A stretch of 26,721 nucleotides of DNA. It comes from Candidatus Eiseniibacteriota bacterium. GTDB taxonomy: Bacteria > Arandabacterota > Arandabacteria > JAGLYR01. Below, piece after piece: positions 4,107 to 13,946 of this stretch. Position 1 is the first letter of the stretch; every line of letters starts with the position of its first letter. The translations under genes and the position numbers were made by a program. The notes beneath the pieces were generated by a model. It saw nothing but the letters and a program-made list of their open reading frames with translations, was not told the origin of the DNA and did not search any database. The stretch is from contig JAGLYR010000126.1 in assembly GCA_023132135.1 (NCBI GenBank), positions 1 through 26,721 of the forward strand, read 5' to 3'.

Positions 4107-4966
4107 AAGTCCTCGTGGTCAAGAACGCGGGTTTCTGCTTCGGGGTCAAGCGCGCAATCCGGATTGCGTCGGAAGCGGCCCGCTCGCGGCATGGACCCGT
4201 TTTCACCCTGGGGCCGCTGATTCATAATCCTCAAGTCGTTCGGAAGTTGGCGAAGGAGGGAGTCGTTGCGGTTCCGAGCCTTGATGATATGACGAAGGGT
4301 ACCATGGTCGTACGATCCCACGGGCTGGAGCCGGGAGTTATCGAAAAGGCTCGAGCCCGGGGGATGGAGATTGTGGATGCAACGTGCCCCAACGTGAAGA
4401 ATGCCCAGCGTTATGCGGCGCGACTGGCGAGGGAAGGTTATTTGACCGCCGTTGTGGGAGAGGCGTCGCATCCGGAGGTGCAGGGGATCCTCGGGCACGC
4501 GGGAGCGTCCTCCCTGGTCGTGGCGGAGGAGCGTGATGTGACGTGCCTCGAACCCCGTGAAGCCATTGGGGTCATCGCTCAGACGACTCTCTCGCAGGAA
4601 TATTTTTCAAGAATTGTCTCACTAATGGTTGAAAAGACCCGGGAGCTTGTGGTATATAACACCATCTGTGGCTGGACGGCTTCAATTCAGGAAGCTACCC
4701 GCGAGGTAGCGGAGAAGGCCGGCGTCATGGTGGTGGTGGGGGGTAGAAACAGCGCCAATACCACTCGTCTGGCGAGAATTTGCAGACGGGTCGGTAGACC
4801 GACCTACCATATCGAAACGGTTTCGGAGCTGAAGACCGAGTGGTTCGCGTCGGCCGATTCCGTTGGAGTGACCGCGGGCGCGTCCACGCCTGAGGGGCTC
4901 GTAAAAGATGTGCTGTCGGGGCTTGAAAGAATTGCCGAAATGGCGTATGATGGCGGAAGTCACTAG
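4103..4966 (+). CDS. ispH: 4-hydroxy-3-methylbut-2-enyl diphosphate reductase (IspH)
   Basis: IspH performs the last step of the MEP pathway, reducing HMBPP to IPP and DMAPP with an iron-sulfur cluster. The protein is 287 aa. The three cluster cysteines are visible in NAGFCFGVKRA (Cys12), VDATCPNVKN and YNTICGWT. Substrate-binding histidines lie in GPLIHNPQVV and GEASHPEV, with the further motifs VGGRNSANT and TAGASTPEGLV. The start ATG overlaps the cmk-plsC stop by 4 nt. The order cmk-(plsC)-ispH-rpsA is seen in many bacteria, and here it leads into rpsA 62 nt later. The pathway partners dxs and ispA lie further along the same strand. Confidence 0.96.
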   Translation: MKVLVVKNAGFCFGVKRAIRIASEAARSRHGPVFTLGPLIHNPQVVRKLAKEGVVAVPSLDDMTKGTMVVRSHGLEPGVIEKARARGMEIVDATCPNVKNAQRYAARLAREGYLTAVVGEASHPEVQGILGHAGASSLVVAEERDVTCLEPREAIGVIAQTTLSQEYFSRIVSLMVEKTRELVVYNTICGWTASIQEATREVAEKAGVMVVVGGRNSANTTRLARICRRVGRPTYHIETVSELKTEWFASADSVGVTAGASTPEGLVKDVLSGLERIAEMAYDGGSH

Positions 4967-7451: not shown

Positions 7452-9374
7452 TTGGGAGAGATTACGGTAAGAGTAGATAATCGGGGGGAGAAAGCGGTCG
7501 AGTCGGGAATCACCAGCGGGCAGGCCATGGCGGAGCTGGGTGTGAATCTGTCAGGGGTACTGGCTGCAATGGTGAATGACGAGCTTGTCGATCTGGCGCA
7601 TCCTGTGGACAAGGATGCCGGGATCCGGCCTGTGACCTTTGAGGATCCCGAAGGACGGCGAGTGTACTGGCACAGTGCTGCTCACCTGCTGGCGCAGGCG
7701 GTTCTTTCTCTCTATCCCGGGGCCCAACTGGGATTCGGTCCGGCTACCAAGGACGGTTTCTACTACGACTTCGATTCAGAGCACAAGTTCGTGCCCGAGG
7801 ATCTGGAAAAGATCGAAGCGGAAATGCAGCGTCTGGCTTCCCAGAACCTGGAGCTCCGCCGCCTTGAGATGAGCAGGGACGATGCCATTGCCTTCATGAA
7901 GGAGAAGGGGCAGTCCTACAAGGTTGAGCACCTTTCGGATCTGGAAGTGGACCGGGTCAGCTTCTACGAGCAGGGAGACTTCGTTGATCTTTGTGCCGGC
8001 CCTCATCTGCAGAGGACAGGTGCGCTCCGTTTCCTGAAGCTGACTTCCTTGGCGGGAGCCTACTGGAAGGACGCCGAGGGACGCCCGATGCTCCAGCGGA
8101 TTTACGGGATAGCGTTTCCGACAAAGGAGGACCTCGACGCGCACGTAGAACGGTTGGAGAAGGCGCGGCAGAGGGATCACCGACGTGTGGGGCCTGCGCT
8201 GGATATCTTCAGCTTTCATCCCGAGGCGGGCGCAGGTCTTGTCTACTGGCATCCAAAGGGAACTCGAATTCTGGAACGGATAGAGGACTTCTGGAAGACG
8301 GAGCACAGGAAGCGCGGTTACGACCTGGTCCGCACCCCTCACATTTCACGTGGTGAGATGTGGGAGAAATCGGGACACTACGAGTTCTACCGCGAGAATA
8401 TGTACTCTCTGGATATCGACGGGGTGGAGTACGCTATCAAGCCCATGAACTGTGTGGGCCACATCCTGATCTACAAGACCCAGATCCGAAGCTACCGGGA
8501 TCTCCCGATGCGGTTTGCGGAGCTCGGGACTGTGTATCGGTACGAGCGGTCGGGAGTGCTGCAGGGGTTGCTGAGGGTCCGCGGCTTCACGCAGGACGAC
8601 GCGCACATTTTCTGCACGCCGGACCAGATCCAAGATGAACTGGCGGGAGTGTTTGAGCTCACGCGCTTCATGCTGGACACCTTTGGGTTCAAGGAGTGCT
8701 GCGTCGAGCTCAGCGTCCGGGATCCCGCCAACCGCGGCAAGTACGCGGGATCCGACGAGATGTGGGAAAAGGCCGAAGCAGCCCTCTGCAGTGTCCTCGG
8801 GACCTGTGATCAGGAGTATGAGCGCGCCGAAGGGGAGGCTGTTTTCTACGGCCCCAAGATCGATGTGAAAATAGTGGATGCACTGGGACATCTTTGGCAG
8901 GGACCGACGATCCAGTTCGACTTCAATCTTCCGGAGCGGCTCGATGTGACTTACGTGGGGCCGGATGGAGGACGCCACCCTGTTCTGATGATTCACCGGA
9001 CTGTGCTGGGGTCCATGGAGCGCTTCATGGGAACGCTCCTGGAGCATTACGGTGGGGACTTCCCCCTGTGGCTGGCTCCCACCCAGGCCCGGCTGTTGCC
9101 GATCCGGGAAGAGCATGTTCCCTTCGCGCAACAGGTGGCCGAGCGTCTCCGCCAGGAGAATCTTGATGTTGACATTGATGCCAGTGATGAGAAAGTCGGG
9201 TACAAGATCCGGAAGGCCGAGATGGAGCATGTTCCGTACATGCTGGTAGTGGGAGGCAAGGAGGTCGAATCGGATCAGGTGTCCGTGAGAAAACGTAAAG
9301 TGGGTGACCAGGGACAGGTGCCCGTGGGCGAACTTGCGGAGCGGCTGGCCGCGGAGGTTGCCTCGCGCATGTAG
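7452..9374 (+). CDS. thrS: Threonyl-tRNA synthetase
   Basis: ThrRS charges tRNA-Thr and edits mis-attached serine. The 640-aa product has a TGS domain (about 1-65), the editing domain with HSAAH and DLCAGPH, and a class II core. The core shows motif 2 (FAELGTVYRYERSG, then RVRGFTQDDAHIFC) and motif 3 (GSMERFMGTLLEHYGG). The C-terminal anticodon-binding domain carries DEKVGYKIR. Zinc ligands are Cys in MNCVGH and His in DDAH and MIHR. The usual MNCPGH is MNCVGH here, a change next to the zinc cysteine. The start is TTG 7452, the only usual start codon between an in-frame stop at 7425 and the TGS domain, with GGAGGG at 7443-7448 rather close. It heads the thrS-infC-rplT-pheST order common in bacteria. 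Confidence 0.96.
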   Translation: MGEITVRVDNRGEKAVESGITSGQAMAELGVNLSGVLAAMVNDELVDLAHPVDKDAGIRPVTFEDPEGRRVYWHSAAHLLAQAVLSLYPGAQLGFGPATKDGFYYDFDSEHKFVPEDLEKIEAEMQRLASQNLELRRLEMSRDDAIAFMKEKGQSYKVEHLSDLEVDRVSFYEQGDFVDLCAGPHLQRTGALRFLKLTSLAGAYWKDAEGRPMLQRIYGIAFPTKEDLDAHVERLEKARQRDHRRVGPALDIFSFHPEAGAGLVYWHPKGTRILERIEDFWKTEHRKRGYDLVRTPHISRGEMWEKSGHYEFYRENMYSLDIDGVEYAIKPMNCVGHILIYKTQIRSYRDLPMRFAELGTVYRYERSGVLQGLLRVRGFTQDDAHIFCTPDQIQDELAGVFELTRFMLDTFGFKECCVELSVRDPANRGKYAGSDEMWEKAEAALCSVLGTCDQEYERAEGEAVFYGPKIDVKIVDALGHLWQGPTIQFDFNLPERLDVTYVGPDGGRHPVLMIHRTVLGSMERFMGTLLEHYGGDFPLWLAPTQARLLPIREEHVPFAQQVAERLRQENLDVDIDASDEKVGYKIRKAEMEHVPYMLVVGGKEVESDQVSVRKRKVGDQGQVPVGELAERLAAEVASRM

Positions 9375-9415
9375 GTGGGATTCTGACGTCTGTATGAGGC
9401 GGGCGTCGTGGAAAT

Positions 9416-9433
9416 GGGAGGTGAAGAACTATT
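9416..9433 (+). promoter_or_regulatory. Ribosome site and ATT start of infC
   Basis: GGGAGGTGA at 9416-9424 is a strong Shine-Dalgarno, with GGAGG ending 9 nt before ATT at 9431-9433. The frame is closed by TGA at 9422-9424, and no ATG, GTG or TTG occurs before GTG 9488, which has no ribosome site. AUU is the known, autoregulated start of infC in E. coli and several other bacteria. Confidence 0.85.
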
Positions 9434-10057
9434 CCCAGCCCGAGAGAAGTACGGATAAACAGCAGAATTCGTATTCCTGAGGTACGAGTGGTCGGGGCGG
9501 ACGGGGAACTCATCGGTGTGATGCCCACCCCGCAGGCACTGGAAATCGCCCGCGACCGAGATCTCGATCTGGTGGAAGTTGCGCCGAAGTCAAGACCGCC
9601 GGTGTGCCGCATCATGGACTACGGCAAGTACAAGTACGAACTGAGCAAGCGGGCGAGAAAGGCGAAGACACGGCAGCACCAGATTCAGATGAAGGAAATG
9701 AGAGTTCGTCCCAAGATCGACGAACATGACTATCAGTTCAAAGCGCGGAAAGTCCGGGAGTTCATTGAGGGGCGGGACAAGGTCCGGGTCACGGTGATCT
9801 TTCGTGGACGGGAAATGACGCACCCCGAGCGAGGTGAACGGATCCTGAAGCGCTTGGTGGAAGACATGAGCGACGTGAGTGTGCAGGAGGGGCCGATTCG
9901 GCGTGAGGGCCGGAACATGGTGCTGATGTTGATTCCGAAGCTCTCCAACGTGCCCAAGGAACGGGCAAAAGAGACCGCGCCGAGTGGGTCCAAGGCGGGC
10001 CCGACGAAGGTTCCGCCGACAACGCCCGAACCTGCCGGCGAAGAAACCCGGTCATGA
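9431..10057 (+). CDS. infC: Translation initiation factor IF-3, AUU start
   Basis: IF-3 binds the 30S subunit and proofreads start codon choice. The 208-aa protein starts I(M)PSPREVRINSRIRIPEVR, which contains the conserved RIN..IR..EVR block. It continues with RDLDLVEVAP, the PPVCRIMDYGKYKYE linker start, the KEMRVRPKI/DEHDYQFK block and FRGREMTH in the C domain. About 40 extra Pro/Lys/Glu-rich residues follow the usual end. Starting at GTG 9488 would remove the conserved N-terminal block, so ATT 9431 is used. IF-3 rejects non-standard start codons, so an AUU start gives negative autoregulation; this is established for E. coli and inferred here. The stop overlaps an ATG (10054) of a 16-codon frame where rpmI would normally begin. 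Confidence 0.95.
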   Translation: MPSPREVRINSRIRIPEVRVVGADGELIGVMPTPQALEIARDRDLDLVEVAPKSRPPVCRIMDYGKYKYELSKRARKAKTRQHQIQMKEMRVRPKIDEHDYQFKARKVREFIEGRDKVRVTVIFRGREMTHPERGERILKRLVEDMSDVSVQEGPIRREGRNMVLMLIPKLSNVPKERAKETAPSGSKAGPTKVPPTTPEPAGEETRS

Positions 10058-10104
10058 AATCGAAAACAGGAGAACGTGAAAGGGTTCGACCATGCCAAGA
10101 GTAA
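10054..10104 (+). pseudogene. 16-codon frame, possible rpmI (L35) relic
   Basis: This frame begins in an ATGA overlap with the infC stop and reads [17 protein letters not shown]35 proteins commonly begin M-K-(T/S)-K-x-(G/S)-A-A-K-R-(F/V)-(K/R), so M, K, S/T, K, T/S, G, R10 and R12 line up. It then runs into rplT, leaving room for no L35. A functional rpmI between infC and rplT is therefore absent. The resemblance covers only 12 residues and may be chance in a purine-rich leader that holds AGGAGA and the rplT ribosome site. Confidence 0.25.
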
Positions 10105-10463
10105 AGAAAAGCCCGGCGTCGCGCCGGCGGAGAAGGAAGATTCTTAAAGCAGCGAAGGGGTACCGTGGCGGCAGGAGCAAGTTGCTCCGTACGGCCAGCG
10201 AGGCTGTGGACCGGGCCCTACGCTACGCCTATCGTGACCGCAGGCAGCGGAAACGTGAATTCCGCGCGTTGTGGATCATCCGTATCAATGCTGCAGTTCG
10301 TCTCCACGGGTTGTCGTACAGCCGGTTCATGGCCGGCCTCAAACAGGCCAACGTGGATATCGACCGCAAGATGTTGGCCGAGATGGCAGTCAACGACGCA
10401 CAATCCTTCGGGCGGTTGGCCGAGCTGGCCCGGTCATCACAGGCAGCGCCAGCCAATCAGTAG
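10092..10463 (+). CDS. rplT: Large ribosomal subunit protein L20 (bL20)
   Basis: L20 is needed for early 50S assembly. The 123-aa product shows the family throughout: a basic N-terminal extension ([20 protein letters not shown]), [33 protein letters not shown] and [30 protein letters not shown] at 10079-10084 serves as ribosome site 7 nt before the ATG. In many bacteria the gene lies directly after rpmI; here it follows infC after 34 nt. L20 represses its own operon by binding the leader in E. coli and B. subtilis; the sequence here is too short for me to see a similar leader fold. Confidence 0.97.
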
Positions 10464-10477
10464 GAGGGTGAGTCGGC

Positions 10478-11488
10478 TTGAGCCGTCCGGAGGATCTTCT
10501 CGAGGAAGCTCGGAAAGAGATCTCTCAAGCGAGCTCGTCGGAGTCGCTGGAGTCTGTTCGCGTCAAGTATCTTGGGCGCAAGGGACTGCTGACGGGTGTG
10601 CTGCGGGATGTCGGGAAGCTGCCCCCTGGGGATAGACCGAGGGCCGGGGCGGAGCTGAACCGGGTAAAAATCGCGATCCAGGCCCTTCTTGATGAGAGGA
10701 AAACGGGTAATGATTCGGGCGCCGCGATCCCGGTCCCGGGGGGCGTGGATTTGACCCTGCCGGGGCGCGGTCGGTTTTTCGGGCAGCGCCATCCTCTTTC
10801 GCAGATTACCGCTGAGATTGTGTCAATCTTCTACAGCATGGGATTCGGCGTGGTAGAGGGTTGCGAAGTCGAGGAGGAGTACTACAACTTCGAAGCGCTG
10901 AACACGCCGGACTGGCACCCGTCCCGGGATGAGCATGACTCTTTCTACCTGGCGCCCGGAATCCTGCTGAGGACTCACACCTCGCCGGTCCAGATTCGTA
11001 TCATGGAGAAGACGAAGCCTCCTGTGCGAATCGTTGCGCCCGGGCGGTGCTTCCGGCGTGACGCGCCGGATGCTTCGCACTTCACCAACTTCCACCAGAT
11101 CGAGGGGCTGTACGTCGACCGTGACGTGAGCTTCGCCAACCTGAAGGGGACCTTGGCCGAGTTCGCGCGTCGTGTGTTCGGGCCAGAGCGCGAGATTCGG
11201 TTCCGGCCGCACTACTTCCCTTTCACCGAGCCGAGTGCGGAGATGGATGTCTCGTGCGCCAACTGTGGCGGCAAGGGTTGCCGGACGTGTTCGGGCAAGG
11301 GCTGGCTGGAGATCCTGGGCTGCGGGATGGTGCATCCGAACGTCTTCAAATACGTGGATATCGACTGCGAAATCTACAACGGATACGCTTTCGGCATGGG
11401 CATCGAGCGCATCGCGATGCTGAAATACGGAGTCAACGACATCCGATTGTTCTATGAGAATGACATCGAGTTCCTGTCGCAATTCTGA
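10478..11488 (+). CDS. pheS: Phenylalanyl-tRNA synthetase alpha subunit
   Basis: PheS is the catalytic class II subunit of the (alpha-beta)2 enzyme. The 336-aa product has an N-terminal coiled coil (about 1-90) and then the catalytic domain with HPLSQITAEIVSIFYSMGF, LLRTHTSPVQIR, the motif 2 segment GRCFRRDAPDASHFTNFHQIEG and the motif 3 segment GYAFGMGIERIAML. Near residues 260-272 lies a CANC-GGKGC-RTC cluster resembling a small zinc ribbon, a known variant in several phyla. The start is TTG 10478, with an excellent AGGAGGG at 10462-10468. An upstream GTG is out of frame. It follows rplT by 14 nt and precedes pheT. Confidence 0.96.
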   Translation: MSRPEDLLEEARKEISQASSSESLESVRVKYLGRKGLLTGVLRDVGKLPPGDRPRAGAELNRVKIAIQALLDERKTGNDSGAAIPVPGGVDLTLPGRGRFFGQRHPLSQITAEIVSIFYSMGFGVVEGCEVEEEYYNFEALNTPDWHPSRDEHDSFYLAPGILLRTHTSPVQIRIMEKTKPPVRIVAPGRCFRRDAPDASHFTNFHQIEGLYVDRDVSFANLKGTLAEFARRVFGPEREIRFRPHYFPFTEPSAEMDVSCANCGGKGCRTCSGKGWLEILGCGMVHPNVFKYVDIDCEIYNGYAFGMGIERIAMLKYGVNDIRLFYENDIEFLSQF

Positions 11489-11540: not shown

Positions 11541-13946
11541 ATGAAAGTGCTGCTGGGTTGGCTCAAGGACTTCGTGGCCATTGAGGAATCGCCGGAGAAA
11601 CTTGCCGGGATTCTGACCGAACAGGGTTTCGAAGTCGAGGCCATAGTTCCCACGGGATCGATGTTCGATAGGATTGTGGTCGGCGAGATCATCGAGCGCG
11701 AACCGTTGGACTCCGATACATCCCTGCTCCGTTGCGGGGTTTCTGTGGGTGACAGAGCGATCCAGACGGTCTGTGGCGATCCGAAGGTGAAAGTTGGAAA
11801 TCGAGTCCCGGTGGCTCTGCCGGGGGCGGAACTTGGTGGCGGGATGAGAGTCGAGACAGGCCGGGTAGCGGGCGTGGAATCCGAGGCGGTGCTGTGTTCC
11901 CTCTTCGACCTTGGTCTCCGGAGTGTCCAGGATGAGGTTCATTGTTTCGGAGGAACGCCGGCGCTGGGCTCCGCGATTGCGCCTCTTCTTGACCTGGAAG
12001 ATCACCTCCTGGAAATCGAGCTGACTCCCAACCGCGGGGACTGCCTCAGCATCCAGGGAATGGCGCGCGAGATCGCTGCCGCGACGGGGCGCATTCTGCA
12101 GGTACCGGATGCAGCTGTGGAGGAAGGCCCCGGCCTTGCCGGCGAGCGTGTCGCAATTGACATAGAAGCCCGCGATCTCTGTCCGAAGTACGTTGCCCGG
12201 ATTGTGGAAAACGTCAGCGTTTGTCCGTCGCCTCTCTGGTTGACCCGGCGGCTGAGACTGATGGGCCTCCGGCCCATCAGCAATGTGGTGGACGTATCCA
12301 ACTATGTCCTCCTTGAGATGGGACAGCCGCTTCACACGTTCGACTACTCCTGCCTGGCCGGTGGGAGAATCGTTGTGCGCCGAGGAAAGGCGGGCGAGGA
12401 GTTCGTTGCTCTGGACGAGACGATCCATAGGCTGGATTCCGAGGTCCTCGTCATCGCTGATGGCGAGAAGCCAGTGGCGCTGGCGGGAGTCATGGGCGGG
12501 ATCAACTCGGGTGTGGTAGATACCACCAAGGTTGTTCTGATTGAGAGCGCGCATTTCGACGCGGTCAACATACGGAAAACGGCCCGGAAACGAGGGCTGT
12601 CGACAGAAGCGTCCATGCGTTTTGAGCGTGGAATCGACCCGGGTGGAGTGGAACGGGCGGCAGATCGATGCGCCCGGCTCTTGGCGGAGGTGGCAAATGG
12701 CACAGTGCTTTCGGGCCGGGTGGAGGCGGGAGACGGAGCGCCTCAGCGGAAGTCGATTTCCCTGAGAGTCCGGCGGGCTAATGTCCACTTGGGTATTTCA
12801 CTGGAGAGCTCGGAAATGGGGGCCTTGCTGCAGGCGCTGGATTTCGAGGTGACGGGTGATGATGTGTTGGAAGTGACGCCGCCCGGTTTCCGCAACGATG
12901 TCACGATGGAAGCGGACCTGGTGGAAGAAGTTGCCCGGATGAGAGGCTATTCCAAAATCCCGGTGGATATGGAGAAGCACCGTGCGGCGCCTGCTTCGGA
13001 GACTCCTCGGGCCAGGATACTGGAGAGGGTGCGGGAGGTACTTGGTGGGCTTGGGTTGAATGAAGCTGTGACGGGGACCCTGAGGGAACCGGGGGATCTG
13101 TTGGCGCTGGGGAGAGTTAGTGAAGAGGAGATTGAGAAGATCCGACTGAAGAATCCGCTCTCGCAGGATCAGTCCGTACTCCGGCCCAGTCTGATTCCGG
13201 GCCTGGTCGCATGTGTGCGTACGAACCTGAACCGGCGGCGGGAAAACGTCCGGCTTTATGAAATCGGTACCGTGTTTCGACCGGCTGCGGATTCGGCGCG
13301 GCCGCGGGAAGCGACACATCTGGCCGGAATTCTGACGGGGCTTCGCGATCCGGTATCGTGGGGGACGGATCCCGTTGCTGTCGACTTCTACGACCTGAGG
13401 GGACTATTGGAGGATTTGGCCGGGGGGCTTCGCCTCCCCGGGATAGCCCTGGTCCCGGACGAAATCCCGACCTTGGAATCGCGGTGTTCCGTGCGGGTGG
13501 AGGTGGGGGAGGAAAGCATAGGTTGCGCGGGGCGGCTGGATCCGGAACTGGGGGAGTCCATCGGGGTGAAGGAAGCGGTCTTTCTCTTTGAACTAGTACT
13601 TGATAAACTCGTGGCTAAGGCACTAGGGTTACAGCAGTTCAGGGTGCTGCCACGTTTTCCGGCTGTGGGCCGCGATCTGGCCATTGTTGTGGGGGAAGAT
13701 GTGCCCTACGAGAGGATCAGTGGCACAATCCGGGAAAAGGGAGAGCCGCTCCTTCGAGGCGTGCGCCTCTTTGATGTCTACCGGGGAGAGCAGGTTCCTC
13801 GGGGGAAAAGGAGTTTGGCCTACAGCTTGATCTTTCGCTCCGACAAGCGTACCTTGACGGATGAAGAGGTAGATGACAAACTGAGGACCATCACTGGATC
13901 GTTGCAGCAGGATTTTGGCGCTGTTCTCCGCTCCGAGGTGGTGTAG
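11541..13946 (+). CDS. pheT: Phenylalanyl-tRNA synthetase beta subunit
   Basis: PheT carries tRNA binding and editing of misacylated Tyr. The 801-aa product is of normal bacterial length. It begins MKVLLGWLKDFV, followed by the EMAP-type tRNA-binding domain (about 40-150), the B3/B4 editing module (LTPNRGDCLSIQGMAREIA, NVVDVSNYVLLEMGQPLHTFD, ALAGVMGG), the B5 domain (about 400-480, ending VEEVARMRGY) and the catalytic-like core (NPLSQDQSVLRPSLIPGL). The last 95 residues are the FDX-ACB anticodon-binding domain (PRFPAVGRDLAIVV to FRSDKRTLTDEEV). AGGATGAAG near 11526 is a weak ribosome site. The gene ends 21 nt before the next start. Confidence 0.96.
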   Translation: MKVLLGWLKDFVAIEESPEKLAGILTEQGFEVEAIVPTGSMFDRIVVGEIIEREPLDSDTSLLRCGVSVGDRAIQTVCGDPKVKVGNRVPVALPGAELGGGMRVETGRVAGVESEAVLCSLFDLGLRSVQDEVHCFGGTPALGSAIAPLLDLEDHLLEIELTPNRGDCLSIQGMAREIAAATGRILQVPDAAVEEGPGLAGERVAIDIEARDLCPKYVARIVENVSVCPSPLWLTRRLRLMGLRPISNVVDVSNYVLLEMGQPLHTFDYSCLAGGRIVVRRGKAGEEFVALDETIHRLDSEVLVIADGEKPVALAGVMGGINSGVVDTTKVVLIESAHFDAVNIRKTARKRGLSTEASMRFERGIDPGGVERAADRCARLLAEVANGTVLSGRVEAGDGAPQRKSISLRVRRANVHLGISLESSEMGALLQALDFEVTGDDVLEVTPPGFRNDVTMEADLVEEVARMRGYSKIPVDMEKHRAAPASETPRARILERVREVLGGLGLNEAVTGTLREPGDLLALGRVSEEEIEKIRLKNPLSQDQSVLRPSLIPGLVACVRTNLNRRRENVRLYEIGTVFRPAADSARPREATHLAGILTGLRDPVSWGTDPVAVDFYDLRGLLEDLAGGLRLPGIALVPDEIPTLESRCSVRVEVGEESIGCAGRLDPELGESIGVKEAVFLFELVLDKLVAKALGLQQFRVLPRFPAVGRDLAIVVGEDVPYERISGTIREKGEPLLRGVRLFDVYRGEQVPRGKRSLAYSLIFRSDKRTLTDEEVDDKLRTITGSLQQDFGAVLRSEVV

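Follow-up and report, generated by a model that had tools for sequence, protein, structure and literature searches.

The genes for initiation factor IF3 and ribosomal proteins L35 and L20 form infC–rpmI–rplT, one of the bacterial gene orders least prone to change and the textbook example of how L20 regulates its own synthesis and that of L35. L20 controls L35 and L20 together in both Escherichia coli and Bacillus subtilis (PMC10931766, PMC6097659), and the B. subtilis type of L20 leader is narrowly distributed, in the Firmicutes (PMC6097659). The locus described here lies in a 26,721-nt stretch of a Candidatus Eiseniibacteriota draft genome, the whole of which is referred to below as the window. 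The junction matches the E. coli and B. subtilis operons in the adjacency, order and strand of infC and rplT and in its flanking genes (thrS before infC, pheST after rplT), but rpmI lies in another unit and no known L20 leader was found. Rfam, searched for an L20-binding leader, gave no match at all up to an E-value of 5 in positions 9300–10600 of the window, and the same search in relatives returned tRNAs only. Absence of an Rfam leader match is expected, since the B. subtilis type is confined to the Firmicutes.

All of the genes at this junction lie on the forward strand. The gene next upstream of infC is thrS (7452–9374), an open reading frame with 50–56% identity to the syntenic frame in relatives, and rplT is followed in the same run by pheS (10478–11488) and pheT (11541–13946), both assigned from their open reading frames and from relatives. 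infC spans 9431–10057; the protein read from 9431 matches TIGR00168 with 216.7 bits, an IF3_C match lies at 9683–9940 and the last codon is TGA (10055–10057). The start codon is probably AUU at 9431–9433, judging from the frame and from an upstream GGAGGTG; AUU is a rare start codon that E. coli infC also uses. The GTG at 9488 given in the list of open reading frames lies too late for IF3. rplT is intact (10092–10463; PF00453, 153 bits) and starts with the ATG at 10092. The intervening segment (10058–10091) holds a purine-rich ribosome-binding sequence for rplT.

The first-pass annotation of this DNA had reported that rpmI is missing between infC and rplT, and the two genes are indeed exactly 34 nt apart with no L35 profile match between them. 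The whole-genome L35 profile search found no match anywhere else in the window. This absence is far beyond chance, because the adjacency is kept throughout a sample of genomes outside the class to which the window's genome belongs and throughout a set of named genomes. Our 60-genome sample includes 52 genomes outside the class, 51 of which have both L35 and L20, and in all 51, compared by eye, the two genes share a contig and lie no more than a few hundred bases apart. Among 80 named genomes fetched by L20, which are a best-hit sample and not a random one, rpmI lies between infC and rplT in every case (80/80).

A single L35 match was found in the window's genome, on a separate contig of the 345-contig draft (C322:2087–2269). 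The match is full length and scores 71 bits (E 3.8e-19) against the Pfam cut-off of 28.9 bits for PF01632; with TIGR00001 the gene scores 72.4 bits (cut-off 51.2) over positions 1–61 of 63. Judged by both Pfam and NCBIfam, this is an ordinary, intact, single-copy bL35 gene, which resembles the rest of the family in its full-length match above curated cut-offs and differs by genomic location only. Of the two possibilities raised earlier, that L35 had moved or that the ribosome lacks it, the genome-wide profile search bears out the first and speaks against the second; with its frame intact, L35 is presumably still made by this genome. The short contigs give no way of positioning C322 with respect to the window.

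The class is represented in our collection by eight draft genomes, including that of the window, and these make up the whole phylum there. The seven that have both infC and rplT (G000–G006) all show the junction without rpmI, so that no intact rpmI was found in the gap in any of the six class relatives in which it was sought; the eighth assembly (G007) has no infC–rplT junction. All eight genomes carry a single good rpmI elsewhere, always directly downstream of a gene for a small zinc-finger protein, here called znf. In seven of the eight, rpsU (bS21) heads the cluster, with znf and then rpmI following it and a divergent regulator gene of the sigma-54 response-regulator type on its other side. 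The exception is the window's genome, where C322 carries the regulator and znf–rpmI while the only rpsU lies apart, on contig C107. The number of S21 genes also differs, with two per genome in G001–G007 and one in the window's genome (L145; L141–L152).

From these comparisons we consider it very likely that rpmI relocated to a separate znf–rpmI unit and that infC–rplT closed up. The relocation is old and lineage-wide, and is neither an ongoing deletion nor an assembly error. In the sequence of events that we propose, rpmI would have left infC–rplT for a position downstream of znf, in an ancestral unit consisting of rpsU–znf–rpmI and the divergent response-regulator gene. The window's genome would have kept the regulator and znf–rpmI on C322, with rpsU elsewhere, and infC and rplT would have closed up after the departure of rpmI. 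L35 would then be expressed with the zinc-finger protein, on a transcript not shared with L20, and because the two transcripts would be separate, L20 could no longer control L35 in cis. Expression of rplT would depend on infC. In several class relatives the reading frame of infC extends into rplT, which suggests translational coupling of the two genes there. A lineage-wide break of this kind shows that L35 does not have to stay coupled to L20. As a separate observation, the infC of one relative (G002; L136, about 2700–2980) encodes a long C-terminal extension made of PKADEV/PKVDEV repeats, ahead of rplT.

The same arrangement is found beyond the class. A profile of the zinc-finger protein, run over 386 genomes, picked out two more phylum-level groups (f69, f102) with strong matches and two single genomes (G179, G032) with weaker ones. 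The gene is present in 4/5 genomes of the f69 phylum and 7/7 of the f102 phylum, and both groups again show the order rpsU–znf–rpmI. Six genomes of these groups were tested; each has rpmI and rplT on separate contigs, and the five that hold both infC and rplT all show them contiguous without rpmI. In G179 and G032, znf is not beside rpmI and the usual rpmI–rplT order is kept. The link between znf–rpmI pairing and a broken infC–rpmI–rplT is therefore complete within the sampled genomes. We found no earlier description of the rpmI relocation or of the rpsU–znf–rpmI unit in the open-access literature. Most f102-phylum genomes also encode an additional homologue of the zinc-finger protein, shorter than the first (L174–L176, L262–L264).

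The presence of the cluster in three phylum-level groups could reflect horizontal transfer or repeated relocation instead of one ancestral event, an explanation to which we give somewhat less than an even chance. In its favour, a tree of concatenated ThrS, IF3, L20, PheS and PheT from 52 genomes separates the three groups, and keeping them as one clade lowers the best attainable score by 69 log-units. Backbone support in the concatenated tree is low, however, and the AU test does not reject a single clade (p 0.123). The data appear flat, since an earlier quick tree, now superseded, gave the opposite sign, with the held-together tree scoring 100 log-units better than the quick tree; a tree of L35 alone (65 residues) is too short and has no resolution. 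Also against transfer or repetition, the order rpsU–znf–rpmI is kept in all three groups and the divergent regulator is present in every locus clearly long enough to show it, bar two. As a rare gene-order marker, the relocation may serve to unite or separate these three poorly placed groups.

A far less probable explanation is the in-place deletion of most of rpmI, which the first-pass annotation had proposed from a possible N-terminal relic. The 16-codon frame on which this rested is present (10054–10104, forward strand); it begins in an ATGA overlap with infC, so that a short ATG frame with a K-x-K-T motif does sit in the gap. Aligned locally to L35 N-termini, however, it scores 21 at best, a value equalled or exceeded by 1208/5000 residue shuffles (24%), by 713/2232 open nucleotide shuffles and by 73/536 open ATG frames of the window (14%). 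Much of the frame, including AGGAGAACGTGAAAGGG, is the purine-rich stretch expected ahead of rplT, and purine-rich sequence of the ribosome-binding type encodes Lys, Arg, Glu and Gly. The six class relatives that have the infC–rplT junction show no counterpart. The shuffles, the other ATG frames and the relatives lead us to reject the relic reading, and we regard the frame as a chance one. Deletion in place is further opposed by the intact rpmI elsewhere in the genome and by the class-wide extent of the rearrangement; a relocation common to the whole class is too old for a readable N-terminus to be left in one genome.

The weakest alternative, that misassembly removed rpmI from the window's contig and that C322 is a contaminant, could draw on the fragmented draft and on the separate contig that carries rpmI, but is very improbable given the same junction in six separate class genomes, which excludes an assembly deletion, the znf–rpmI pair elsewhere in all seven and an estimated contamination of 0.42%. 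A binning error affecting C322 alone is likewise unlikely, because its znf–rpmI pair and neighbouring regulator match those of the class.

The relocation of rpmI points to an uncharacterised small protein whose gene is kept between those of S21 and L35. The protein has 58–61 residues, and 23 positions are invariant in seven class members, including C37, C40, C53 and C54 (CPVCGM...CC). These cysteines are the basis on which zinc binding is predicted. The best Pfam matches reach 15–17 bits, all under the cut-offs, and NCBIfam gives no match; by its sequence this would be a tiny, undescribed zinc-finger protein belonging to no Pfam or NCBIfam family. We claim no fold, because the single-sequence structure model is weak (mean pLDDT 62.8, pTM 0.41) and its best Foldseek match has an E-value of 0.4. 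Sequence matches in the PDB cover the cysteine knuckle only; they include two archaeal ribosomal C2H2 proteins (E 0.09–0.2), and such knuckle-only matches are not evidence of homology. In one relative (G005) the gene contains an in-frame TAG (L131, about 4243–4245), at a position that is Glu or Asp in the others; this may reflect a broken gene or a draft error.

The relocation itself is modest, and the zinc-finger protein between S21 and L35, together with a ribosome-binding site that in relatives lies in a conserved stem, is of more interest. A tentative reading, which we hold to be possible though unlikely, is that rpsU–znf–rpmI is a conserved ribosomal unit of several little-known phyla, that the protein of about 60 residues binds zinc and is a new component of the ribosome or of its assembly machinery, and that in the class relatives the translation of znf, and perhaps that of L35, is governed by an RNA structure hiding the znf ribosome-binding site, in place of L20 control. 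As a lead from seven sequences, the region between rpsU and znf suggests that znf, and perhaps rpmI, is regulated at the level of translation in these relatives. The switch was not seen in the window's genome, where the region upstream of znf folds with a z-score of −0.95.

In all seven class relatives, the DNA that separates the stop codon of rpsU from znf opens with a conserved GTAGAGCTTTTCGAGCCCTTTCGATTCTAC. This element, which can pair with the znf ribosome-binding site, lies at L127:4184–4275, L128:778–868, L129:4474–4562 (reverse strand), L130:3874–3964, L131:4010–4102, L132:4192–4285 and L133:4430–4524. In the consensus fold, its CCCTTTC and TTCTAC segments form pairs with the znf ribosome-binding region, which lies downstream of them. 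Across the seven sequences 96.7% of cells pair; the fold was obtained from this very alignment, and for that reason the slid controls favour it. Folded singly, the seven sequences give z-scores of −1.3 to −4.0. Two-sided changes occur at three pairs, all of them in G005, and three are reached by 4/500 shuffles.
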